Source: Hemileia vastatrix (Eukaryota > Basidiomycota > Pucciniomycetes > Pucciniales > Zaghouaniaceae). From it: a stretch of 64,000 nucleotides of DNA. The notes beneath the pieces are model-generated. The model ran no database searches. It saw only the letters and a program-made list of their open reading frames with translations, and was not told the origin of the DNA. This document shows positions 2,917 through 64,000 of this stretch, piece after piece. Each line of letters starts with the position of its first letter. The stretch's first letter is position 1. Where the stretch lies: contig JASXTE010000015.1 in assembly GCA_030280995.1 (NCBI GenBank), positions 21,410,501 to 21,474,500 of the forward strand, in the 5' to 3' direction. Position numbers and translations under genes: made by a program.

Positions 2917-3738
2917 TCAATAGTTTTTAAAACAATAATCAATAGTTTCAGAATAATCCATTAAAAATGGTGTGCCTAAAACTGGTTTAAATGTACCCAT
3001 TAGAACATAAAAATGTATATCCCTTGTTGCTCCCACAACTCTAGTGTGCACATACTCTTCTGCTCCTATAGCAGGCAACCTTCCTCCACCGATTCCTGTG
3101 ACAGTACTTTTACCACCTTTTACTGGAAGACCTAGCTCCACAGCATCATTCACTGAAAACACATTTATTTGTGAACCTGTGTCAACTAACACTCTAATCT
3201 GCTTACCATGTACAGTAATTGTTGAATACCCTAAAGGACCTGAATTATTTGGAGCCCTTGGCAGTCCCACAACTGGCTGAAATAACTGCTCTCCTGCTTT
3301 AAACTCACTGAAATTAGATACCCTTTTCTTACTGCACTTATCCACAATTCCATTTGCTACGTCTGGCACTACTGCTTTCAGTACCCCCAATGGAACCAAA
3401 ACTTTAGTTTTTAAACACCGCTCAACTAAATTCTCAGCTACATTAGGAAAGTCAGTGTGAGCTGGGCGCTGCATCCTCCACTTAGGTTTAGTCAACTTTT
3501 CACCAGCTTTTTCTCTTCCAAGTGGGCTCTTTGGAGTATTATTCCTTGCTCTTGGAATTCCCTCTGCTGGAACTGATCTTTTCAGAGTTACCTCTGGGTT
3601 CTCTATCATTGCAGGTTGCTCTTCTGCCTGATGATCCATACCATACCCAAAAGATTCCACGCCATCAATTTCAATATCCTCTATAGGCATAGGTGTATTC
3701 TCCCTTGTAGTATAAACTACTACCTCAATATCTTCCAT
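2917..3738 (-). pseudogene. Retropepsin-like aspartic protease segment of F1
   Basis: An open stretch of 273 codons, acidic at its N-terminus (EDIEVVVYTTRE) and ending in a retropepsin fold. The signature VLVDTGSQINVF keeps the catalytic DTG triad. GIGGGRLPAIGAEE and VLGTPFLMD correspond to the flap and C-terminal hydrophobic-Gly region. The F2 counterpart (53553-54308) has lost the Asp. The protease would mature the Gag-Pol precursor. It lies upstream of the RT segment in the same orientation, as expected. Its first ATG is probably not a native start, because a related frame (3760-3969) continues upstream after a stop. Confidence 0.7.
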
Positions 3739-12100: not shown

Positions 12101-13608
12101 TGTCTCTTAGGGACAAGGGGAGCTGAAGGTTTTTTCTTTTCCACTGGTAACTTACTTGTAGTAGGTTTTACCACTTCAACACTTTGTCTGTAATTACTAT
12201 ACTTGGTTTCATATTTGTGGTTTAATAATATCTCATTGCATATATTAATGAATCCAGAGGTGTCTCTGACAGTTTCAGTTCTAGCTACAATAATGTCTCT
12301 AACTGATATAGGCAACTTGTATATTATTTTTTCTTTCCACTCTTCATAATCCATTTTTGGATCCATAGCTTTCATGATTTTTATTAAATTCATTAAGAAG
12401 ACCATGGGTTTATCTCCAGCATTTGGATTATATCTGGCCCTTTCATACAGTCTTTGTTGAGTGATTCTAAATTTTGGGCCACCAAATTGCCTTTCAATTA
12501 GTGCCTTCCATTCATTCCAGGAGTAATTAATTCCCTCACTCAATACAGATTCAAACCATAATAAGGCCACATCTGTAAATAAAGATATTAACTTTGAAGT
12601 AATTTCTTCATCAGGTAATTTGTATGAAAATTTTAAGTTATCAATTCTTTGTATGAATTGTTGCCAATCAGATTTTGAATCCCTGTCAAAAGAAGGGTAC
12701 TGATCTAACTTAGGCCAGTTCTTTTGGCTAGTTTTTGCTTCCCTAACCTGAGGAATATTGAGTAATTCACTTACTTTAGAAAGATGATCATTTATTTCAT
12801 CTTTTACTGATTTTATATTCTCAGAGCCCATGACACTATGTTCATGTTCCATCATTGGTTTATCCTCAGAGTGTTTCATAAAAACTGGTACTCTTTCTAC
12901 ATAAGAGGTATTATCCTTTATTGTTTCAGTATTTTTCAAAATGTTAGCTACTTCAATTTCTACTCTTTGTAACCTATCTTTTATTACAGGTACTTGAGTC
13001 AAAGTATCATTTACATTTGAAAAAGACAATTTTACACGTCCCTCTATGGTAGCCATAATATTCTGAGAGTGTTCTAATTTACTTTCTAAATTTCTAATCT
13101 CAGATTTTAATCTTTTATTCTCATTGATTAATTCATTATTTGAATTTTCAATAATTTTTAATTTATTGGCTGTGGTACTCAATGATTGTGTTAGTTGTAA
13201 TAATACATTTTCTGTATTAATGTTTGACTCTTTTGAGAACTCTTCCACTTTTTCAATTCTCAATAATAATTTACTTAGTATTTTTGATTCCATTGGATTC
13301 TCTTTTAAAAAATATTCTATTTTTTCCGTGTCCAATTCAGAAGACTCATTATCAGGGTCAAGATTTAATTCATTTGATTCCATTTTTATATTAATAGTAT
13401 TTTCCTGGTGATCAATAAAACTATTTACATTGTCCTCATGTAAAGACAAGTTTAACATATTCTGTTCAAATGAATAATCCTTTAAATCCTTATCAATAAT
13501 ATCCAATATTTCCTTATCAATCTCATTACCTATAAGTAATTTATTTTCAGGTTGATATAATTGATCATAAGAAGTTGGATGACTTACCAAGGTCTTATCC
13601 CACTTCCC
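9187..13608 (-). CDS. Element A Gag-Pol main part: Gag, protease, reverse transcriptase, RNase H, integrase N-terminus
   Basis: A 1.47-kb-codon open stretch on the minus strand. In order: a coiled-coil N-terminal part (about 13530-12900), the Gag core with NWPKLDQYPSFDRD and LPDEEITSKLISLF, a zinc knuckle CYKCNEPWVKGHTC (Cys-x2-Cys-x7-His-x-Cys, as in many chromoviruses), a protease with AILDTGAAGS, an RT with VYIDDIIVFS, an RNase H with LYTDASFIGLGAAL, and the integrase HHCC finger with first Asp in NMDFVTGLP. The native start is not here: the frame continues upstream, interrupted only by TAG at 13609-13611. The stop at 9187-9189 is a Trp-to-TAG change. All catalytic residues visible here are intact. 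Confidence 0.92.
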   Translation of the reverse strand, partial: GKWDKTLVSHPTSYDQLYQPENKLLIGNEIDKEILDIIDKDLKDYSFEQNMLNLSLHEDNVNSFIDHQENTINIKMESNELNLDPDNESSELDTEKIEYFLKENPMESKILSKLLLRIEKVEEFSKESNINTENVLLQLTQSLSTTANKLKIIENSNNELINENKRLKSEIRNLESKLEHSQNIMATIEGRVKLSFSNVNDTLTQVPVIKDRLQRVEIEVANILKNTETIKDNTSYVERVPVFMKHSEDKPMMEHEHSVMGSENIKSVKDEINDHLSKVSELLNIPQVREAKTSQKNWPKLDQYPSFDRDSKSDWQQFIQRIDNLKFSYKLPDEEITSKLISLFTDVALLWFESVLSEGINYSWNEWKALIERQFGGPKFRITQQRLYERARYNPNAGDKPMVFLMNLIKIMKAMDPKMDYEEWKEKIIYKLPISVRDIIVARTETVRDTSGFINICNEILLNHKYETKYSNYRQSVEVVKPTTSKLPVEKKKPSAPLVPKRQENNTCYKCNEPWVKGHTCKKRINVIETSQNSEPSNHEDENVESSEDCKSNISYSDDENEIFVLEQDIMFLNDAIPHTDTSLTSIEEAEIIKDVSHDTYKITPIRAPIIICGKEMNAILDTGAAGSVVSLNTLMKLDSKYQEKLEPVQTKNWRGFGSVLNPIGKYKTAVFFKYNNGYVRAVCEFVVMDNNNCSDWFIIGNDLLTKFGIKLDPANSCFTIGVNGKRKFKICSENSVYTISPREEQLQGGRTTNEVGELENEIQKASFSPQLSKIEEEDILRLIKAYPMAFAHGSNELGLVKDHEMKISLSCDLDNIPGSLKKKPYPASPAKRKDIEDNIKLLLEMGIVEKVDTTPKYCVISPVLISYEKDKARLCGDYRALNTYTVDDIYPLPRIASIHATLQGAKYISCLDGNKGYHQIPVERNSQNYLLITTHMGIYKYVRMPFGPKNAPSVFQKLMDNVFHQEMVEGWLLVYIDDIIVFSKTYDEHLNHLKRVFQKMDEINMTIALKKCKFGFQSLKVLGHVVSGLQICVDQNKVAAIKNIGIPKNVKEVQSFLGMCGYYRQYIKNYQSIAAPLTTLIRKNEAFIWNNERQHAFNKLKECLMSAPILGLQDFTLPFILYTDASFIGLGAALQQKQIINGKLSEVVICYISRTLRKTELRYGATQLECLAVVWALEKLHYYLEDQKFELITDCSAVKSLLNMKTPNRHMFRWQLAVQEYRGRMTITHRAGTLHSNVDLLSRSPLPNDADIPAYVPENEVIHIFGIYIVDLEEEFMQTILENYSSDKDLSKLSTILNDPTNASMSALIKTLPPKYKNALEKGKLSIEDGYIYYRKKLSNVIVIPPSMKELMLSTCHDDILAGHFDFNKTLTRVKNTAWWINMKEDVQKYIETCDSCQKSKRLTGKRAGLLQQIEQPKAPWEIINMDFVTGLPLAGKESFKSCWVIVDRLTKMCKFIPTHKEVSAKDLALLW
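13530..13587 (-). other. Intron 2 candidate, element A (58 nt)
   Basis: Donor CCTTG|GTAAGTC and acceptor TTACTTATAG|GTAATG on the minus strand. The donor overlaps the ORFX stop codon. Length 58, like the equivalents in C and E (B has 52). Removal closes the Gag-Pol frame shortly downstream, so Gag-Pol would need retention. The acceptor is weaker than in C or E. Confidence 0.55.
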
Positions 13609-14121
13609 CTACCTCTCCTTGCCTTTCCCCTGTAAGGGTGACTGCTGGAGCCCTGCTGTTGAGGATTGTTGTAGTTTTGGGCGTACCAATCCCATTTCCA
13701 TTTGCTTACTGTAATTTTTTGGTCCTCCTCTTGGGCTGGAGGTGTTGCTATGGAATTGTTGGGTGCCACTGTTGGTGGTTGAGTCTTTATGTCCACTAGA
13801 GCTTGGTTGACCTCTATGAAACCTTGAGCTGCTCTCTTTTCCAGATTGTTGATCTGGTCCACTATATTGTTGACTCTTATTGTCAAGGTATTCAGTAGGG
13901 TGGATAGGGAGTGAACTTGTTCTTGTAAAGTATTTTTTGTTTTCTTTATTGAAACCTGCTTTAAAAGCTTTTCCCTTTCCTCCAGAGACATTGACGGAGT
14001 GTTGTTGATTATGGGAGAGTCCTGGCCCTCCATTTGAATGTCCTGTAACAGGTCTTTCAGCTCTAGGTCTTAAGTTATAAGGTTTTACCTTATTACTTAC
14101 AATGTCATTGTTGTCACACAT
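13584..14121 (-). CDS. ORFX of element A: spliced, overlapping small protein
   Basis: Exon 1 is 14121-14101 (MCDNNDI), the intron is 14100-14043, and exon 2 starts at 14042 with DIQMEGQ. The frame is +1 relative to Gag-Pol. The protein has a heptad-patterned helix (about VHSLSTLLNTL to INNLEKRA), a Trp motif VSKWKWDWYAQN, a basic tail HPYRGKARRGRG and the end RPW followed by TAA. The same architecture recurs in E (plus strand), C and B. Trp-TAA is encoded whether or not the second intron (13587-13530) is removed, because exon 3 also starts GTAA. I do not recognise the protein; a nucleic-acid-binding, self-associating factor is a guess from composition. Confidence 0.7.
13609..14121 (-). CDS. 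Element A Gag-Pol N-terminal extension (unspliced frame)
   Basis: The frame opens at ATG 14119-14121 (MCDNNDI) and, if no intron is removed, runs Ser/Gly/Gln/Lys-rich and low in complexity to a TAG at 13609-13611, then continues in the same frame into Gag. In E the equivalent frame is fully open and in C it is open to past this point, so the TAG is probably a mutation. The whole segment overlaps ORFX in the +1 frame. Its poor conservation compared with ORFX suggests that ORFX carries most of the selective constraint. Whether Gag really begins at this ATG is inferred. Confidence 0.6.
   Translation of the reverse strand: MCDNNDIVSNKVKPYNLRPRAERPVTGHSNGGPGLSHNQQHSVNVSGGKGKAFKAGFNKENKKYFTRTSSLPIHPTEYLDNKSQQYSGPDQQSGKESSSRFHRGQPSSSGHKDSTTNSGTQQFHSNTSSPRGGPKNYSKQMEMGLVRPKLQQSSTAGLQQSPLQGKGKER
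14043..14100 (-). other. Intron 1 of ORFX, element A (58 nt)
   Basis: Minus-strand donor GTAAGTAATAAGG and acceptor CTGTTACAG, with a possible branch site GCTGAAAG 19-20 nt before the end. Length 58, i.e. 1 mod 3; phase 0. Removal moves translation from the Gag-Pol frame to ORFX. Equivalent introns: 55 nt in B, 64 nt in C, 58 nt in E. Confidence 0.7.
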
Positions 14122-14443: not shown

Positions 14444-14612
14444 TTATCTGCAAAGATCACAAATTTAATTGGTCTATTGACAGACTCCCACTAAGAACAA
14501 TTATATGTTAAATTAGTGGTAAAAAATTTTATCTGCAAAGATCTCAAATTTAATTGGTCTATTGACAGACCCACTAATAACAATTATAAGTTAAATTAGT
14601 GGTAAAATTGTT
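14444..14612 (-). repeat. 85-bp tandem repeat in the leader of A
   Basis: Two copies of an 85-bp unit starting TTATCTGCAAAGAT at 14444 and 14529. Each copy contains, on the transcript strand, the hairpin-forming GTCTGTCAATAGAC (in the second copy extended to GGTCT...AGACC). The leaders of B, C and E also carry repeated hairpins. Confidence 0.8.
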
Positions 14613-29351: not shown

Positions 29352-29939
29352 CTGCATTGTAATCATCAGTACTGTGTGCAATCTGAGAAGGTAATCTACT
29401 TACTAAGGGATAGGAACAACCCTGACTTTTGGTGCTTTTTCTTTGGCTTGTAAGGGTTAGTTGAAGTGGTCTGATGAGGGGGTAGATCCCTGTTGAAATT
29501 GTGGCTGGCCCACTGCTGATGGAACCAATGCCAATTTTATTTCTCCACCAGGATCATGTCCTGAGAATGACCTGATCCTACTTGGATAGAGGGTTTCTGG
29601 TTTGGCTGTACTTCCTTCAGCTCTTCCAGAGTTTGGTTTAGTTTCTGGAATCCTATCCTGCAGTTGTTTTCCACCTTTTCCACTTCCTTTATGATAGAAG
29701 ATTTTGAATCCTCCAGCTTCAGAACTTGTTTTTCCAGGTGTGAAAGTTGATCCTGAAGAGGAGAGGAATTTATATTTTTAGTTACCTTTTTTATTGGGGT
29801 GTCCTTTTCCTCTATGCTCATTTTTTCTGGCTGAGGGTAAGTCTGTCCTTCCGTAGTGATGTCCTGGTACATTGTTTTTAGCTTTAGACCTGGTATTAAA
29901 GGCAGGTTTATCACTTACATTGTCCTGTGGAGCACTCAT
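29351..29939 (-). pseudogene. ORFX relic of element B with both introns
   Basis: Start 29939-29937 (MSAPQDN), intron 1 at 29918-29864 (55 nt, GTAAGT...TACCAG), exon 2 from 29863 beginning DITTEGQ. Exon 2 has a heptad helix (LQDQLSHLEKQVLKLED), then VEK, a TAA where other copies have Trp, NWHWFHQQW, and a Lys-rich tail. Intron 2 is 29403-29352 (52 nt) with branch-like TACTGATGA and acceptor ATGCAG. Even this decayed copy keeps the phase and 1-mod-3 lengths. The unspliced frame has stops. Confidence 0.6.
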
Positions 29940-44235: not shown

Positions 44236-45182
44236 TATTTCCTCAGAAGTTTTTCAATTAAGGTATAGATTTCAGGGGGAATAGAATCATTTTTAATTGC
44301 AAGAGAAGGATTAATCAAAGAAGTAGAAGTTAAATGTAAAGGTTCATCAAATGACAATTTGCTAATTTCATCAATAGGGCTACTAGTTACAGGAAGCTGT
44401 CTTTTAACAGGTTTAACTGTTCTTTCACCATGTTCAATAATATTACCTGCAGAAGAAGTTTTATTAGAAAACATACCCAAGTGACTATCAGCCAAATTAC
44501 TTACCATGGAAGAGGAGGAAACTTCCCCTGAGACTGGGTTTGGGATTGTGCTTGGGCCTTCTTTCTCCTGCCTTGTTGGTAGGGATGAGGATGTGGATGG
44601 AAATCGGGTGTTCTGGATGGGCCAGGCTGATGATGAGGAGGGTGTTGCACATTCTGTTGGTAGTGACTCATTAGATAATCTCATTTCCATTGCTCTACTT
44701 CCATAGTATTTGGATTTTGGATGGTTGAGCTGGGTGACTGTGAAGGTTGAGCCTGAAACTGAGGCTGATTGGGAGGCAACTGAGGAGGGGCCTGGGCCTG
44801 ATTCTGGTTCCTGAGTTCTTGAACCTGATCCCACAAGGTGTCTACTTTTGCTTTGTACGTCATATTTTCTGTCTTCAACTCTTTTATATGTCTGGACAGG
44901 TTGATGATTTGTTGTGGCAGAGGAAGCTTTTTTATTTTGAATCCTTTTGGAAGACCTTCTTGAGGTACTAGAGGCTTTACTTCCTTCTGTTGTTCTGGGG
45001 GAAGGGGGTTTGGTTTGTTTACATTTCCTGTCATTTCCACATCCTGAATTATGTGAATTTTTTGTGTTAGCATAAGATTTTTTATGTCCAACTTTAGAAG
45101 AACTCACAGTATCAGAATCATAGTCAATTTTAATTTCATCCACTTGCATGTTATCCATTTTTTCAGCCAAATTGTTGGACAT
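44232..45182 (-). CDS. Element C Gag-Pol N-terminal extension (unspliced frame)
   Basis: Starts at ATG 45182-45180 (MSNNLAEKMDNMQ) and stays open for 316 codons without splicing. The middle is Ser/Thr/Lys-rich and low in complexity where it overlaps ORFX in the +1 frame. The end (INPSLAIKNDSIPPEIYTLIEKL) is the beginning of conserved Gag and parallels E. The stop at 44232 is caused by the indel that shifts C's Gag. Confidence 0.65.
   Translation of the reverse strand: MSNNLAEKMDNMQVDEIKIDYDSDTVSSSKVGHKKSYANTKNSHNSGCGNDRKCKQTKPPSPRTTEGSKASSTSRRSSKRIQNKKASSATTNHQPVQTYKRVEDRKYDVQSKSRHLVGSGSRTQEPESGPGPSSVASQSASVSGSTFTVTQLNHPKSKYYGSRAMEMRLSNESLPTECATPSSSSAWPIQNTRFPSTSSSLPTRQEKEGPSTIPNPVSGEVSSSSMVSNLADSHLGMFSNKTSSAGNIIEHGERTVKPVKRQLPVTSSPIDEISKLSFDEPLHLTSTSLINPSLAIKNDSIPPEIYTLIEKLLRKY
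44447..44504 (-). other. Intron 2 candidate, element C (58 nt)
   Basis: Donor CCATG|GTAAGTAAT, branch-like TTTTCTAATAA, acceptor ACTTCTTCTGCAG|GTAAT. These are the strongest signals of the four copies. Confidence 0.65.
44501..45182 (-). pseudogene. ORFX of element C, with a Trp-to-TGA stop
   Basis: Exon 1 is 45182-45108 (MSNNLA...DYDSDT), intron 1 45107-45044, exon 2 from 45043 (DVEMTGN). The middle, LPKGFKIKKLPLPQQIINLS, is the closest match to E's FPKGFRIKKMPLSQQVKNLS. The Trp motif reads VEQWK then TGA at 44681-44683, where A has VSKWKW; beyond it the frame continues DYLMSHYQQN, HPHPYQQGRRKK and ends LPW-TAA at the intron-2 donor. The nonsense change fits the general decay of C. Relatedness to A, B and E is clear; function unknown. 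Confidence 0.65.
45044..45107 (-). other. Intron 1 of ORFX, element C (64 nt)
   Basis: Donor GTGAGTTCTTC, branch-like ATGCTAACAC, acceptor CATAATTCAG|GAT. 64 nt is again 1 mod 3, phase 0. Confidence 0.7.
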
Positions 45183-57211: not shown

Positions 57212-59034
57212 TTTTTATCACATTCTTTGTTCTAGTTTCTTTTTGAAAGTTGAAAAGTTTCTCATTGAAATGTTTTTCACCTTCCCCTGTGCTAAAAAAT
57301 CTTCATTGATGTCTTTTATAGAATGATAAGGTCTGATAAGAAATAAAGAATCAGGGGAGATAGAGGATATTTAATTTTTTTGATTGAATATATCTTTCAC
57401 AGGACAGCCCAAATTAATCATTGGGTTATAGTCAGGAATAAGATTAATTATGTTGGGGAGTGACCCAAATCTTTGGAGATAGCTATTAGGAAATTAGAAA
57501 GATAGAAATTCAAAATAATAATTAGTAGGGGGAAGTTGGTATCTTTTTGGGGTAATAATGTATCTTCAACTCATATAGAGGATGAATCCTACCCTAGAAG
57601 CTAAACCCCCAACAGGAGAAAATAAAGTTTGATAACCTGAGAGGCCAATTATTACATAGAGGATGTGGGAATTAGAAGGGCACTGTTTACTAATGTTAAT
57701 ATGAGTTGAATGTGCCCTAGCCCTGATAATATGTTATGTATGAGAGAGATGAAGTGAAAAAGGTTTCTCAATAAAACCTGGAAAGCTTCTGAAGTCAGAT
57801 ATGTGAAATTGAAGTAAGCTAATACAGATGGGAGAGGAATTATACAATGATTCCATCTTGAATATAAATTAATTATGAGAGGAAAGACAATAATTCAGGA
57901 AGAAATTACTTTTTATAAAAGACTAAAAACATTTCTTGAAAAAGTAAGTCACATGATTTGAATGATGAACGGATTTCCAATAATTTTCAGAGATTTTTCA
58001 ATCACTCTAGGTTGAGATAAACCATCAGGAAATATGTCAGAAGCTAATATTAACTGAATTATAATTTCTACATAGATTGAAGTCACAAGAGGTCCCAATT
58101 GACCAATGAAATTTTGAAAAATTAATGATTGGTTTTTTCATGTATAATTTGAACTCCACTTGTTTAAAAAATGAATTAAGGTTTTCTCCCAAATCAAAAG
58201 AATAGATTAGGAAAAATTGAAAAGTAAAAAAATACTGAAACTTCCACTTTTACAAAAGAAGAAACCAAATTTTTGACTTGTGAAAAATGCTTATGGACAC
58301 ATAAATACATCCAGTAATTTTCTCATGTTTCTATTATCTAGTATTGAAATAAAAATGCAGGATCTGAAAGGCCTGGAATATTCTCTTACTTTAATGTCCT
58401 GTTTTAAAGAACTGCACAAAAATGAGTTAAAATAAAAGTGGATCTCAGTCAAAGTATATGAAAAATCTATTATTGCACATGCCTTGTAATCTTACTTGAT
58501 TTCTGTTTAAAATCCATAGCACAGGTTCAACTTCTTATACTCAAAAAAGTGTTAATAATCTTATGAGATTAAGTCTATCTAATAAAATAATTTTCTTTTA
58601 ATAATAAATATTATATTATATTTTTCCTCTGGAATTCTCTTAAAAAAGTTTTAAATAGTAAAACCAGATTTTAATTCACTGAACTCAAGTTCCAGTACAA
58701 ATAAAGAAATTCATAAAGATACTCAACAATATATATTTACAAAAAATTTCAGCAACTTGAAGTGCTCTACAGTCTTTCCCTGGGGTGCCCCACCCTTCCC
58801 CTCTTTTGGCAGCCACAAGGCCTTGCACAAGCCTCTCAAAATAAAACTTACTTACTTCAATTTTTTCATTCTTACTTAGCATATTTCTATCATATACTCT
58901 GAATTTTTTCATAGAATGAAGTTTTAAAATGAATCAGATAAACTTTTCAACAAACGTTTAAGGCAAAAAGTTGCCTCATGTTTTCATTAACAGCAGCTCA
59001 GAAAAAAAAGAGGCAAAATACAAGGCACCATGTT
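57212..59034. other. A+T-rich stretch without a gene
   Basis: No convincing frame on either strand; 58685-58912 (minus) is the longest and has no recognisable feature. No repeat match within the window was noticed. It ends at the LTR of element E. Confidence 0.5.
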
Positions 59035-59838
59035 TGTCAGCCAGGCTACTAGACTTACCCAGTGAAATAATTAATTATTTACTGGATGAAGCCGCACCTT
59101 ATCATTTTAATTATTTAATTATAAATTAGTTACATTAAAATTACTTATAATAAATTAACTAATTACAGAATGATAAAATTAAATGAATAATTAAAATTAA
59201 ATATAAAATTGTCCCTTATATTTTTTCTCTAACACTGTGCTCGTTTGACAGGTTGGAAGAAATAAAGATTTATATTAAAAAATAGATTTTAAATTAAAAT
59301 AAGATTTTAATATTCAAATAATATTAAATATATACAAAAACCCAAATTTCTCATTTAGAATTGACTTCTACAGTAAATATTAAATAAATTGATGTATTTC
59401 TGACATACTCTGTAAATACATCTTTTTGATGCCTTCTTTTTAGAACAACTTTATTATTTGAAAATACTTCTTCTGGAATATTCTTTTTCTCTCTCTCTCA
59501 TACTACTGTTTTCAGAATTTGATTGCCGTGCTTTGTCCCTCCTTTGCCTATATAATGCCTCTCTTTTGGTTGTTTTTTATTCATTCCTTTACCAACTTAC
59601 TTTATTATTACTATTTACAACACAATACTTATTTTTATATCTTATCTCATTAGTAGTTACAAGAGCGTAATTCTAATCAATAAATTATAACAATATTTAA
59701 ACCCTACCTCTTATATTTGAGTAAAAAATCACTTAGATTAAGAAATATGTACCAAATTTTTGAGAGTTTATTTAAAATCCTTAAAATTCTCATAGAAACT
59801 TCATACCAAATCTTCTAGACCAAAAGCATACCTTGACA
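59035..59838 (+). repeat. 5' LTR of element E
   Basis: 804 bp from TGTCAGCCAGGCTA to CATACCTTGACA. Both ends are defined by comparison with the two LTRs in B. TATA box TATATAATG at 59549-59557. Confidence 0.85.
59549..59555 (+). promoter_or_regulatory. TATA box of the E LTR
   Basis: TATATAA within CCTTTGCCTATATAATGCC. The second copy at 27779-27785 sits in nearly the same context (TTTGCCTATATAAGGCC), so the core promoter is conserved. Confidence 0.65.
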
Positions 59839-59854
59839 ATTGAGGGCTTTCCGA
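59839..59854 (+). promoter_or_regulatory. Primer-binding site of element E
   Basis: ATTGAGGGCTTTCCGA directly after the LTR, aligned with A, B and C sites. No TGG at the expected place. Confidence 0.55.
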
Positions 59855-59976
59855 ATTATCAACGGCGCAACGATATTTGAGGCGTAATCAAGGGAACCAT
59901 TGGTGTGCAAAGTACCTGTAAAGGACGAGAAAGCGAGAAAACGACAAACGTCATACGTCACGTGACAAAAAATTTT

Positions 59977-60032
59977 GCTGCGAACGGGAATCAAACCGCG
60001 CTCCAAAAATTAAGCTCATATACTGACTAAAC
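59977..60032 (-). other. tRNA-like relic in antisense, leader of E
   Basis: On the minus strand a D-arm-like TTTAGTCAGTATATGAGC is followed by CTTAAT (as in a Lys CTT anticodon loop) and a T-arm-like GGTTTGATTCCCGTTCGC. The anticodon stem and 5' acceptor strand are missing, so it is not a functional tRNA gene; it may be coincidence. Confidence 0.3.
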
Positions 60033-60290
60033 GTTGTATATATCGTGGTACTTATTGTTATTACTATTTGTGGGTTACTCTTCACTCTTCATTTGTTATG
60101 TATTTCCTTTTACTCAGCACTCTGTAAGTGGCATTAATTTGCTCATTTTTCAGGGGGAGGTGTCTGGTAATTGGACTTTATTTTTATTATTATATTTTTT
60201 TTATCCTGGTAGACCATAATAGAGCAATAAGTGTTCGTAGTCCCAGAGGTAATAAATAAATTATATTTTAATATTATTTATTATAATTTT

Positions 60291-60730
60291 TCAGTTGACA
60301 TTTGTCCTGATTAATTTAATTGTTCCAGTTGACAAATTGTCCTGACAATAATATTTTTAATTAATATATAATTAATATTTAATTACTTCAGTTGACTTTG
60401 AGTCCTGGTAATTCAATAAATATTTTAATTAATAAAACTCACATTTAATTATTTCAGTTGACATTAAGTCCTGGTAATTAAGTGATCAAGCTTAATCAAA
60501 TTTTAAAATAAAAATTTATATTTAATTACTTCAGTTGACATTAAGTCCTGGTAGTTAAGTTATCAGTTTAATAAAATTTTGTTAAATTAATAAAGTTTCA
60601 TATTTGATTACTTCAGTTGACAATAAGTCCTGGTAATAAATTAGTTGATTTAAATCCTGAAAATAAATAATTAAAAATTATTAATAAAAATTCTAATTTA
60701 TTTCTACAGTTGATTATATTATAATCCTGG
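60291..60730 (+). repeat. Array of at least eight bulged hairpins in the E leader
   Basis: Units CAGTTGAC-loop-GTCCTG begin at about 60292, 60326, 60389, 60465, 60532 and 60614, then TAGTTGAT-loop-ATCCTG at 60642 and CAGTTGAT-loop-ATCCTG at 60707. In each unit GAC pairs with GTC (or GAT with ATC) and CAG with CTG, with an unpaired TT. Spacing is 28-82 bp in A+T-rich DNA. A ninth, weaker unit lies at about 60765. Confidence 0.75.
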
Positions 60731-60860
60731 TTTTAAATTTTTTTTATTAATAAATTAATTTTATTAAAGTTGATTTTTATCTTGAAAAAAAGATTTTTTT
60801 TATTATTTATTTTATTTTTTTTATATAAAAAATCAAAAATCAAAACTAATTAATCTTATT

Positions 60861-60880
60861 GTCTCTTTTCTTCATTTCAG
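60861..60880 (+). promoter_or_regulatory. Strong 3' splice-site-like sequence before the E start codon
   Basis: A pyrimidine run ending CTTCATTTCAG lies 12 bp upstream of the ATG. It could be the acceptor of a leader intron; no donor was identified with confidence. Confidence 0.4.
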
Positions 60881-60892
60881 TAAAATCTTAAA

Positions 60893-61566
60893 ATGACTGA
60901 CCAAAGTGGTTCTGCTGCATGTGAAGAAGAGCTAGACTTAATTGATTATGATGAGCCTACTTCAGTAAGTTCTCCTTTAACAAGAAGAATTTCTCAAACT
61001 AATAAATCCTTGCCCCAAACAGGATGTAGAGATGGAAGAAGTAGAAATCCTAGTGGACACAACTCAGGATCAGAAGCCTATGATAAACCCACCAGAAGAG
61101 TTTCCAAAAGGCTTCAGGATAAAAAAGATGCCATTGTCTCAGCAGGTAAAGAATCTGTCTACTCACATAAAGGAGTTAAGGACAGAAAGCTTGAGACTAA
61201 AGGTAAGGGTAGATGCTTTGGAAGAAAAGGTGAGAAGAACAGATACTTTTCTCCAAGAGAAGAAGAAATCTCTTCCTCCCAGGGATCAACAACAATTGGC
61301 TCCCCAGTCCCAAGAGAAGGTGGAAGTGTCCAAGTGGCAGTGGTACTGGCTAAACACTCAGTGGGACTACCTGGCTCAAAACCAGCATCAGTTACCTCAG
61401 GCAGGTCCATCAAGGCCCAACCAGGTCAACCCCACTCCTCCCCACCCTTATCAAGGAGGCAAAAGAAGAAGAAAGCCCAATATGGTGATACCCAGCAAAC
61501 CCTGGTACGTCCCTCTATTGATTCTCAAGTGCCTTTTCTTGTGGCTGACTCTGTTCCTTCAGGTAA
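60893..61566 (+). CDS. ORFX of element E: spliced, overlapping small protein
   Basis: Exons 60893-60964, 61023-61504 and 61563-61566; 185 residues. The first 24 residues are shared with Gag-Pol (MTDQSGS...DEPTS); exon 2 is in the +1 frame. It holds FPKGFRIKK at 51, a heptad helix at about 62-103, the Trp motif VSKWQWYW (Trp129, 131, 133), HPYQGGKRRRK and the end KPW-TAA. The final Trp codon is split by intron 2 (TG|G). If intron 2 stays in, the protein instead gains a 27-residue tail starting YVPLLILKCLFLWLTLFL, which looks membrane-seeking. A, B and C have the same arrangement. I do not recognise the family; self-association and nucleic-acid binding are inferred from composition. Confidence 0.72.
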
Positions 61567-64000
61567 ATCAGGAAGGGAGGATGAAACTTTGAGACCTATA
61601 GAGGCTGGGAGTAGTAGACAAATCACTCATGTATCAAATCCTTTACTTTTAATTGCTACCTCAATGATTAATCCTGATATGGCTGTAATTGATGAAACTC
61701 TTGACCCTGAGTTCTATGAGAGTCTGGAAAGTTACTCAGTTTCCTTATTGAGAAACACTCCAGATGTAGCAAGAATTAATGATGAGCACTTGAGAGATAT
61801 TATTGCCAAGCAAAATCATATAATGAACAATATGCAATTGACTCAGAGATATAATAGTTTGTTAACTGATCAGGGTTATCAAGCATTAAGAAGTGAATCA
61901 CAGAGAGTCTCTGATGAATTGTCTCATTACAAATCAACCCATGAAAAGAAAGTTGCTTTATGGCAAAATATAAAAAATGATTTGTCTAAACTAAAAGATA
62001 CTGTATCTGCCTGTTGCCAGGAGGTAGAGATAGATAAGATAAATCTGAAAAGATTGAATGACCATTTGTCATCTTCTCAAAATAAAAATCAATTATCTTT
62101 TGCAACTATCAATGAGAGTTTATCTAGTCTTCCAAGAATGAAAACAAGACTAACAACCATTGAAGAAAAATTGAACTCATTGTTAAATGACCAAAAATAT
62201 TCTGACATTTCTGTGAAGGAACATATAGTGCAGGATGCTCAAATAGTACCTGTGGCTAGTTCATCTAAAGTAAAAATAGCTCCAGAAATACCTGTTGATA
62301 ACACTGAGTTTCCATCAAAAACTGATGATGCACCAGGATCTGCAACAGAAGGATTAAACAATGAGATTTCAGCCCAATTAGAGAAATTAAAGCTGCTTCT
62401 TACTCAGAAACAAGCTAGTACTAAGGAGACTCCTTCAAATCAAAAGAATTGGCCAAAACTTGACCAGTACCCAACATTTGATGGTGATTCTTCCTCTGAT
62501 TGGCAACAATTTATTTGCAGAATTGATAACTTAAAAAATTCTTACAAACTCCCAGATGAAGAAATTGTTTCCAAGTTAATTTCTTTGTTCACTAATGTTG
62601 CCCTGATGTGGTATGAATCTGTTCTCCTGGATGGGAATGACTACTCATGGGAGGATTGGAAGAAATTAATTAACGCACAACTTGGTGGCTCCAAGTTCAG
62701 AATGGCTCAACAAAGGCAGTATGAGGAAACTAGATATAGCTCTTCTACTGATAAACCTATTGAGTTTTTAATGAAACTTGTAAAAATCTTAAGGGCAATG
62801 GACCCAAATATGGAGGTTGATTTATGGAAGGACAGGATACTCTATAAATTACCAATGTCTCTGAGAGACTTGATAGTGGCTAGGACTGAGTTCTCCAAAG
62901 AACCCTCTTCTTTCATTAATACTTGCAATGAAATACTTCTAAACAATAAGTATTATGCCAGAAGATTCATTCCTAGGACCCCTTTGGAGAAACCCTCCAC
63001 TTACCAACAGAAACCTCTGGAAAAGGTTGGTAAACCTTCTGCCCCTGTTGCACCAAAGAAGTATGCAACAAACACTTGCTTCAAGTGCAACAAGCCTTGG
63101 AAGAAAGGCCATGTTTGTGACAAGAAGATAAATCTTGTAGAAAAAACAGAGGAACATGCTGATGACACAGTGGTACTGGATGATACATCAAGTGTTTGTG
63201 CCAGCAATATTTCATATGAATCTCAACAAGAAATCTTGATGCTGGAAGAGGATATCCATTATTTAAATACTATTGACATTGATAATAATGATTTATCTAC
63301 AGTTGAAGATGCTGATATCATAATTAACATTGAGGATAGCTCAATTATTATTGCCCCTCTTAAGGCACCTGTCTTGATCAATAGAACCAGCATTGAAGTT
63401 GTTCTGTATTCTGGAGCTGGAGGAAGTGTAGTATCTGAAAGAGCACTTGCTTCAGTAGATCAAGACTATAAATCTAAACTGATGCCTATCATTTCTGAAA
63501 ATTGGAGTGGGTATGGCTCTGTTTTGTCCCCCATTGGGAAATACAAAGCCACAGTGTTTTTTAAATATAACCATGGTTTTGTAAGAGCTATTTGTGATTT
63601 TGTTGTCATGAAAAATGATAACTTGAGCAATTGGTTTATTGTAGGGAATGATATTTTAACCAAGTATGGCATAAAATTGGATCCTTCAAACCAATGTTTC
63701 ACAATGGGGATGAATGGGAAGAGAAAATTTAAGATTTCCTCCCCTAAAAAATTAGTAAAACCAGAATTGAACACATGTAATTCTGTGGTTCAATATAAAG
63801 GAAGATCTACAAAGGAAATGCATGTCCTTATGTCTGAAATTGACAATGCTTCTTTTGGAGAACAACTTTCTGATGAGGATAAATATTCCATCATTAACTT
63901 GATAAAATCTTTTCCTATGGCCTTTGCCCATGGGTCACATGAACTGGGATTAGTTAAAGAGGAAATGAAATTTTCATTGTCTTGCCCATTAACTGATATA
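60893..64000 (+). CDS. Element E Gag-Pol (unspliced), partial
   Basis: ATG at 60893 opens 1036 codons without a stop to the window end. Order: N-terminal extension overlapping ORFX (residues 1-205), an E/D- and heptad-rich region (about 240-440), Gag core with NWPKLDQYPTFDGD (about 520) and LPDEEIVSKLISLF, a zinc knuckle CFKCNKPWKKGHVC (about 729), a protease domain (about 825-930), then the start of RT (EEMKFSLSC). In the protease the catalytic Asp is Tyr: VVLYSGAGGSVVS against VVLDSGAGGSVVS in C and AILDTGAAGS in A. Both ORFX introns must stay in the RNA for this product. Related along its length to A and C. Confidence 0.9.
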   Translation, partial: MTDQSGSAACEEELDLIDYDEPTSVSSPLTRRISQTNKSLPQTGCRDGRSRNPSGHNSGSEAYDKPTRRVSKRLQDKKDAIVSAGKESVYSHKGVKDRKLETKGKGRCFGRKGEKNRYFSPREEEISSSQGSTTIGSPVPREGGSVQVAVVLAKHSVGLPGSKPASVTSGRSIKAQPGQPHSSPPLSRRQKKKKAQYGDTQQTLVRPSIDSQVPFLVADSVPSGKSGREDETLRPIEAGSSRQITHVSNPLLLIATSMINPDMAVIDETLDPEFYESLESYSVSLLRNTPDVARINDEHLRDIIAKQNHIMNNMQLTQRYNSLLTDQGYQALRSESQRVSDELSHYKSTHEKKVALWQNIKNDLSKLKDTVSACCQEVEIDKINLKRLNDHLSSSQNKNQLSFATINESLSSLPRMKTRLTTIEEKLNSLLNDQKYSDISVKEHIVQDAQIVPVASSSKVKIAPEIPVDNTEFPSKTDDAPGSATEGLNNEISAQLEKLKLLLTQKQASTKETPSNQKNWPKLDQYPTFDGDSSSDWQQFICRIDNLKNSYKLPDEEIVSKLISLFTNVALMWYESVLLDGNDYSWEDWKKLINAQLGGSKFRMAQQRQYEETRYSSSTDKPIEFLMKLVKILRAMDPNMEVDLWKDRILYKLPMSLRDLIVARTEFSKEPSSFINTCNEILLNNKYYARRFIPRTPLEKPSTYQQKPLEKVGKPSAPVAPKKYATNTCFKCNKPWKKGHVCDKKINLVEKTEEHADDTVVLDDTSSVCASNISYESQQEILMLEEDIHYLNTIDIDNNDLSTVEDADIIINIEDSSIIIAPLKAPVLINRTSIEVVLYSGAGGSVVSERALASVDQDYKSKLMPIISENWSGYGSVLSPIGKYKATVFFKYNHGFVRAICDFVVMKNDNLSNWFIVGNDILTKYGIKLDPSNQCFTMGMNGKRKFKISSPKKLVKPELNTCNSVVQYKGRSTKEMHVLMSEIDNASFGEQLSDEDKYSIINLIKSFPMAFAHGSHELGLVKEEMKFSLSCPLTDI
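60965..61022 (+). other. Intron 1 of ORFX, element E (58 nt)
   Basis: Donor TTCA|GTAAGTTCTC, branch-like CAAACTAATAA 19-20 nt before the end, acceptor TTGCCCCAAACAG|GAT. Phase 0, 1 mod 3. The intron itself is open in the Gag-Pol frame, so retention is compatible with Gag-Pol. Confidence 0.75.
61505..61562 (+). other. Intron 2 candidate, element E (58 nt)
   Basis: Donor CCCTG|GTACGTCCC, branch-like GGCTGACTC, acceptor TCTGTTCCTTCAG|GTAAA. Its removal ends ORFX at KPW and closes the Gag-Pol frame within ten codons; retention allows Gag-Pol. Confidence 0.65.

Follow-up and report, generated by a model that had tools for sequence, protein, structure and literature searches.

Two reading frames and two short introns at the start of gag in element E

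We analyzed a window of 64,000 nucleotides (nt) from the fungus Hemileia vastatrix (contig JASXTE010000015.1, positions 21,410,501–21,474,500), which contains the elements that we call A, B, C and E, and concentrated on E, a long terminal repeat (LTR) retrotransposon reaching past the end of the window. The original prediction had described a start codon at 60893 followed by an unbroken Gag-Pol frame, a 58-nt intron at 60965–61022 and a second intron of the same length, and a 185-codon product in frame +1, here called ORFX; all of these coordinates were confirmed (Table 1). Frame 0 stays open for 1036 codons, up to the window end. Without intron 1 the same ATG leads into frame +1, and without both introns this frame comprises 185 codons ending Pro-Trp-TAA, the last Trp codon being split across 61504/61563 and the TAA falling at 61564–61566. 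A frame +1 as open as this one (194 codons) arose in 22 of 20000 synonymous-codon resamplings and in 7 of 20000 codon-order shuffles.

The splice sites are well kept among 40 E copies. Intron 1 reads GTAAGT...CAAACTAATAAATCC...CAG, with CTAATAA between donor and acceptor; its donor is GTAAGT in 37 copies and at least GT in 38, and its acceptor is CAG in 39. Intron 2 reads GTACGT...CAG, with GT and CAG each present in 40/40; in two copies its donor is GTAAGT, so that a TAA stop lies there whether the intron is spliced or not. When intron 2 is retained in the window copy, ORFX is extended by 28 residues to 213. This added tail (61505–61592) is strongly hydrophobic; a role as an alternative membrane anchor was set aside because no constraint was seen inside intron 2 (a dN/dS-like ratio of nonsynonymous to synonymous change, omega, of 0.97, from few changes).

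We think it very probable (about 0.87), judging from the copies and the frames they carry, that the start codon of E yields Gag-Pol when the introns are retained and ORFX when they are spliced. Full-length E RNA would contain both introns within 5' gag; with both retained, the first ATG would lead into Gag-Pol, whose first ~220 residues would form a poorly conserved extension, and with intron 1 spliced the same ATG would lead into frame +1 and thus into ORFX, of 185 residues after both splices. We infer that ORFX is translated from such spliced RNA. As the original prediction proposed, the balance of retention and splicing may set the ratio of Gag-Pol to an accessory protein.

Table 1. Features of elements E, A, B and C, as positions within the window
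Feature	Positions	Strand	Remark
E, Gag-Pol open frame (frame 0)	60893..64000	+	from shared ATG, continues past window end
E, exon 1, 24 codons common to Gag-Pol and ORFX	60893..60964	+	
E, intron 1, 58 nt; Gag-Pol coding if retained	60965..61022	+	splice sites in copies; exact loss in 27 copies
E, exon 2, ORFX frame +1 over Gag-Pol frame 0	61023..61504	+	omega 0.34 (+1) vs 1.04 (frame 0)
E, intron 2, 58 nt; Gag-Pol coding if retained	61505..61562	+	exact loss in 8 aligned copies, 30 pattern matches
E, ORFX end once intron 2 is spliced: final base of Trp codon plus stop TAA	61563..61566	+	GTAA in 39/40 copies
E, 5' LTR and untranslated leader	59035..60892	+	LTR begins TGTCAGCC at 59035; LTR and leader given as one interval
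E, leader array, 7 (loosely 9) short units CAGTTGAC..GTCCTG	60292..60784	+	pattern and fold; candidate RNA signal
A, exon 1 with shared ATG	14101..14121	-	
A, intron 1, 58 nt	14043..14100	-	no spliced junction matched
A, ORFX exon 2, ends PW, TAA inside donor	13588..14042	-	
A, intron 2, 58 nt	13530..13587	-	sequence only
B, intron 1, 55 nt	29864..29918	-	sequence only; ATG at 29939
C, exon 1 with shared ATG	45108..45182	-	
C, intron 1, 64 nt	45044..45107	-	exact junction matched at 17 places
C, ORFX exon 2	44505..45043	-	window copy has one internal stop
C, intron 2, 58 nt	44447..44504	-	sequence only

Spliced copies in the genome

We searched the genome assembly (747.6 Mb, 791 contigs) for the joined exon ends of each intron, allowing up to 3 mismatches and using the reversed pattern as a control. 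The exact spliced junction of E intron 1 was found at 30 places (control 0), and a junction of equal length moved by 7 nt had no match in the genome. The donor-side string with intron 1 occurs at 3151 places (a count of pattern matches, as are 2979 and 2327 below, the copies not having been read individually), which puts spliced copies at about 0.9%. Alignment to E showed that 27 of the 30 junction matches lack exactly 60965–61022, eight of them (L041, L042, L043, L053, L058, L060, L061 and L064) also lacking intron 2. The junction of intron 2 was likewise found at 30 places (control 0), six of which coincide with intron 1 losses by pattern matching. Double losses would number about 0.3 if the two were independent; the observed excess, 6 by pattern or 8 by alignment, fits the removal of both introns from a single RNA.

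The remaining three junction matches (L063, L066 and L070) have a spliced start followed by a 998-nt deletion. For these, splicing to a distant acceptor at 62021 was considered and rejected, as that site reads GAGG in all 40 intron-bearing copies and the three carry the GATG of exon 2; the exon 2 letters at the join mark them as deletions in a template that was already spliced. The deletion, across a short match (GTAGAGAT), removes ORFX and joins exon 1 to a later part of the Gag frame, which stays open over 504 codons or more in both L066 and L070.

In family C the spliced junction of intron 1 was matched at 17 places (control 0), and the intron-containing string at 2979; counted by pattern only, the 17 include two pairs about 8 kb apart (C579 and C338), leaving 15 separate places. 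Both pairs belong to a type of regularly spaced copies seen elsewhere in the assembly (e.g., G000:C2:8196072, 8204017 and 8211962), in which copies follow one another on one strand at ~7.9–8.2 kb, as if LTRs were common to neighbors in tandem. Spliced proviruses act as a fossil record of splicing that can be counted per intron and per family; those of E support the conclusion that in vivo splicing of each intron occurs at least on occasion.

Origin of the spliced copies

Upstream regions were examined for 20 of the 30 spliced-junction places. In 18 of these the alignment is lost at 59033–59037, the LTR start, next to 15-base flanks that differ from copy to copy; the LTR start reads TGTCAGCC in most of these copies and is altered in a few; the two other regions are those of L082 and L085. 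LTR starts beside different flanks point to independent integrations, by the usual pathway, of spliced RNA, and exact intron loss in LTR-bearing proviruses at different sites requires that RNA was spliced and then reverse-transcribed. We placed 67 copies on a tree rooted with C, 40 of them with introns and 27 spliced (the three deletion derivatives being dropped); this tree requires a minimum of 12 losses of intron 1 and 7 of intron 2, rough counts given that support is low in places and that the intron-bearing rows are close relatives of the window copy. L060 and L061 are near-identical and probably reflect one event.

On this tree some spliced copies cluster (e.g., L059, L065 and L068), some stand at the base of E, and others are scattered among intron-bearing copies. 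The basal group is what one would expect if the intron-less state were ancestral and the 58-nt segments had been inserted later, with no splicing required, bearing in mind that the sampled intron-bearing rows all lie near the window copy. However, one intron position is common to A, B, C and E, other spliced copies occur among intron-bearing ones, and there are copies lacking intron 1 only, both introns, or apparently intron 2 only, with every loss exact at GT-AG; later insertion is therefore extremely improbable.

Selection on the overlapping frames

For the two frames of E, which the original prediction had proposed to compare by dN/dS, we took the changes common to at least two of 67 copies (the 40 nearest to the window copy and the 27 spliced), scored each singly on the window copy, classed it per frame, and derived expected counts from the mutation spectrum of singletons in the 40 intron-bearing copies. 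Frame +1 of exon 2 carried 90 nonsynonymous and 79 synonymous changes, where 124.2 and 36.9 were expected (ratio 0.34), and a synonymous count of 79 was reached in none of 20000 random draws. The Gag frame of exon 2 carried 128 and 41, where 120.4 and 40.1 were expected (ratio 1.04). Downstream of intron 2 the ratio is 0.44 for the Gag frame and 1.39 for frame +1. Singletons, representing recent decay, are near neutral (0.93 to 1.16) in each of the three frames, both across exon 2 and across gag downstream, those inside intron 2 being too few for judgement; the recent decay of copies L001–L040 shows many G>T and C>A changes besides C>T and G>A.

Stops are depleted in both frames of the overlap, with four in the Gag frame where 12.5 were expected (85 of 20000 draws as low) and four in ORFX where 11.9 were expected (154 of 20000). 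Part of the Gag-stop shortage is due to selection on ORFX; among ORFX-silent changes, Gag stops number 1 against 3.6 expected, and other ORFX-silent changes 74 against 32.7. Changes altering both proteins are fewer than expected (51 vs. 77.1), and those altering ORFX alone are not (36 vs. 37.4), a hint that Gag residues in the overlap may be under weak constraint too. In the overlap most constraint falls on ORFX and the Gag frame is mainly held open, the roles switching at intron 2, and the data support purifying selection on ORFX at the protein level. Copies with ORFX broken and Gag intact, named beforehand as evidence that would speak against the prediction, were rare in our sample of 40 E copies: the first 540 codons of Gag are open in 12, and ORFX is open in 11 of these, as it is in 17 of the 28 with a broken Gag (start-codon loss, present in two of the 40, was ignored in this tally).

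These results bear on two further explanations. Splicing might be accidental, with frame +1 open through composition and the spliced copies functionless by-products; E copies are spliced at only ~1%, none was matched in family A, and long +1 frames do turn up in shuffles (22/20000). Against this stand the omega of 0.34 in frame +1, a recognizable ORFX in A, B, C and E, and the shared position of the splice sites in these four, and we regard accident as very unlikely. Alternatively, frame 0 upstream of ~61563 might be untranslated, with Gag-Pol starting from a later ATG and ORFX being simply an upstream gene. A Gag omega of ~1 in the overlap, a frame-0 stop in element A, and the lack of most of the extension in L063, L066 and L070 would agree with a later start, but it is unlikely given the depletion of frame-0 stops, also among ORFX-silent changes, and intron lengths of 1 mod 3.

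The same layout in families A, B and C

The prediction had also extended the layout to A, B and C. This holds for A and C, and in part for B, which has intron 1 but a broken ORFX whose end is not PW; a further GTAAGT...CAG segment of about 52 nt (hand count) lies downstream of its intron 1. The window copy of C has a stop in ORFX and a frameshift in the Gag frame, and that of A has one Gag-frame stop, inside the region overlapped by ORFX. Intron 1 is 58 nt long in A and E, 55 in B and 64 in C; all are 1 mod 3, as expected if the retained and the spliced forms must both be readable. In A and C the intron 2 donor is GTAAGT, so that the frame ends in PW-stop with or without splicing, and GTAA also follows the acceptor; the protein end is the same by either route. 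ORFX of E matches that of C with 36% identity over 145 aligned positions (tblastn E-value 3e-17), that of A with 30% over 151 (2e-06), and that of B with 25% over 110 (0.005). Conserved in the alignment are DVEM/DIQM at the junction and a region of leucine-spaced heptads; KWxWxW and a run of basic residues are visible in A and E, the B and C rows ending earlier at their stops.

The downstream part of E Gag-Pol matches elements C (46% over 442 residues) and A (41% over 242). No Pfam family was matched in the first 1035 residues of E Gag-Pol, the reverse transcriptase and integrase of E lying beyond the window end. In element A, reverse transcriptase, RNase H and an integrase zinc domain scored above the Pfam cut-offs and the protease just below, and a chromodomain (PF00385, E-value 1.8e-08) was seen in A, the E integrase again being outside the window. 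E is thus probably an LTR retrotransposon with kinship to element A, which is of Ty3/gypsy type and bears the chromodomain. For element A Pol, the closest among the matches listed (120 of 1596) were two unnamed proteins (62–63% identity), and further ones came from a pseudoscorpion assembly, Puccinia, Austropuccinia and Rhodotorula; the rusts Puccinia and Austropuccinia, with Rhodotorula, are the closest named fungal relatives among the matches listed. No ORFX relative was detected among the rust and Rhodotorula predicted proteins. A viral-contig scan with protein P0002, a Gag-Pol relative, found no relative; residues 1–200 of P0002 are Ser/Arg/Gly-rich and of low complexity, resembling the overprinted Gag extension.

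ORFX protein and leader array

An AlphaFold model of ORFX exon 2, built from 15 sequences, has a long confident helix at 38–81 and a second, Trp-rich helix of low confidence at 103–119, the remainder being unstructured. The protein has a predicted coiled coil, is Trp-rich over one stretch, and ends in a basic tail. For the window copy all Pfam matches fell below the cut-offs and none was to an RNA-binding family; over the 15 aligned members the best was bZIP_1 (E-value 3.7e-05, in four members, with no cut-off shown). Matches in the PDB were to assorted coiled coils, the best being reovirus sigma-1 (0.0006), with a weak one to a LINE-1 ORF1p chain (0.022).

In the leader of E, each of the seven strict units of the array can fold into a small bulged hairpin, the two loose ones having no fold of their own. 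The upper stems vary among units and yet still pair (e.g., GACAA/TTGTC), and across six copies the number of loosely defined units ranges from 6 to 10. The leader of element A contains, at 14444–14607, a tandem duplication of ~80 nt with self-complementary stretches, as seen by eye.

Weighing the one-start-codon reading

Several observations count against the reading that one start codon serves Gag-Pol and ORFX by way of splicing. About 24 of the 30 intron 2 losses seem to affect intron 2 only, only one of which (C2:8641525 with C2:8640988) was matched with intron 1 still present, and splicing of intron 2 alone yields neither product. Family A gave no match to a spliced intron 1 junction against 2327 donor-side and 2771 acceptor-side matches, and still keeps ORFX, a genuine difference from E and C; in A, splicing may be scarce, or else the RNA it produces may fail to reach new copies. 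The clusters on the tree suggest that a spliced provirus may at times have re-transposed, a few copies sharing one ancestor. With a ratio of 1.04 the Gag-frame extension is perhaps just a tolerated open frame, and 13 of the 40 E copies have a stop in it. On the side of the protein, the AlphaFold model is mostly of low confidence (mean predicted local distance difference test score 64.9, predicted template modeling score 0.29), the matches are to coiled coils only and do not discriminate, and no relative of ORFX was found at an E-value of 1 or less in 5.8 billion proteins, with either the single sequence or the 15-row profile.

Possible function and comparison with known systems

As to what ORFX might do, it could multimerize via its predicted coiled coil and bind element RNA via its basic tail, perhaps at the hairpin array of the leader, and so favor the export, stability or packaging of unspliced RNA, like Rev and CERV. 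The predicted multimerizing helix and basic tail suit an RNA-binding multimer. By analogy, we hold a Rev/CERV-like role for unspliced RNA to be the most likely function of ORFX, tentatively and at well short of even odds. A LINE-1 ORF1p-like part, in which ORFX made from spliced RNA would assist Gag structurally or as a nucleic-acid chaperone and not regulate RNA fate, is a possibility that we give slightly less weight. The predicted coiled coil and basic C-terminus would serve it equally, and the ORF1p chain is among the weak matches; that match, however, is one of many to unrelated coiled coils, and the window copy matched no RNA-binding family.

In Ty1, an internally started Gag fragment acts as a copy-number restriction factor. 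ORFX might similarly be self-limiting, with splicing lowering full-length RNA and retrotransposition; by construction splicing drains the Gag-Pol RNA pool, and thousands of copies coexist. Since ORFX has just 24 residues in common with Gag and so is no Gag fragment, we consider self-limitation distinctly unlikely.

In copia and Arabidopsis copia-type elements, a spliced short mRNA encodes GAG. E resembles these in that splicing versus retention selects the product of one element, and differs in that the spliced RNA would encode a different frame rather than Gag. Rev and Rex of complex retroviruses are products of spliced RNA with a basic stretch and a helical region, and act with repeated hairpin units in RNA. 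ORFX is like them in its putative origin from spliced RNA, its basic stretch and predicted helix, and the hairpin units of the leader as a candidate binding array; in E, however, the splice sites are inside gag and the start codon is that of Gag itself.

The closest counterpart is Cer1, a Gypsy/Ty3-related LTR retrotransposon of C. elegans. According to PMC10309623, a spliced Cer1 mRNA encodes the N-terminus of gag and then continues in another frame, and its product CERV is required for export of unspliced RNA. Like E, Cer1 has a single gag-pol frame without a stop (PMC10309623 and PMC3315495), its unspliced RNA must bypass consensus splice sites, and its product is lineage-specific. CERV, as described there, has 517 residues and comes from a five-exon 2.4-kb mRNA with exons 1–3 in the gag frame, whereas ORFX has 185, of which 24 are in common with Gag, and the whole of its exon 2 overlaps the Gag frame. 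The export role is, in that source, demonstrated for CERV, and would apply to ORFX by analogy only, the two being likened by layout. In E, a Cer1/CERV-type layout, with spliced RNA that has the gag start codon and a frame switch, is indicated by the exact spliced copies together with selection in frame +1. The original prediction had stated that no chromovirus with this arrangement had been described, which may hold for chromoviruses as such; the Gypsy/Ty3-related Cer1 is a close counterpart, and the logic of one start codon with splicing is already known from it. No fungal element with such an arrangement was found in the literature searched (the top-listed titles and abstract openings, mostly from non-subscription journals), and within that literature what is new in E is that the host is a fungus, that the Gag N-terminus is fully overprinted, and that spliced proviruses record the splicing in the genome.

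Going further by the same analogy, we speculate that ORFX is an independently evolved fungal regulator of the Rev/CERV type, overprinted on the Gag N-terminus, which would be made early from spliced RNA and multimerize on the leader array, freeing intron-bearing RNA for nuclear export and packaging, so that one start codon would serve as an early-to-late switch in a chromovirus; we view this fuller scheme as possible rather than probable. E is a case of overprinting in which frame +1 is conserved and the overlapped Gag frame shows hardly any constraint. A method is offered too, in that exact spliced proviruses in a repeat-rich genome can document splicing per intron and per family without RNA data. 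If the reading is true, retrovirus-like control by splicing, known in animals from retroviruses and Cer1, would extend to a lineage of fungal elements with thousands of copies.
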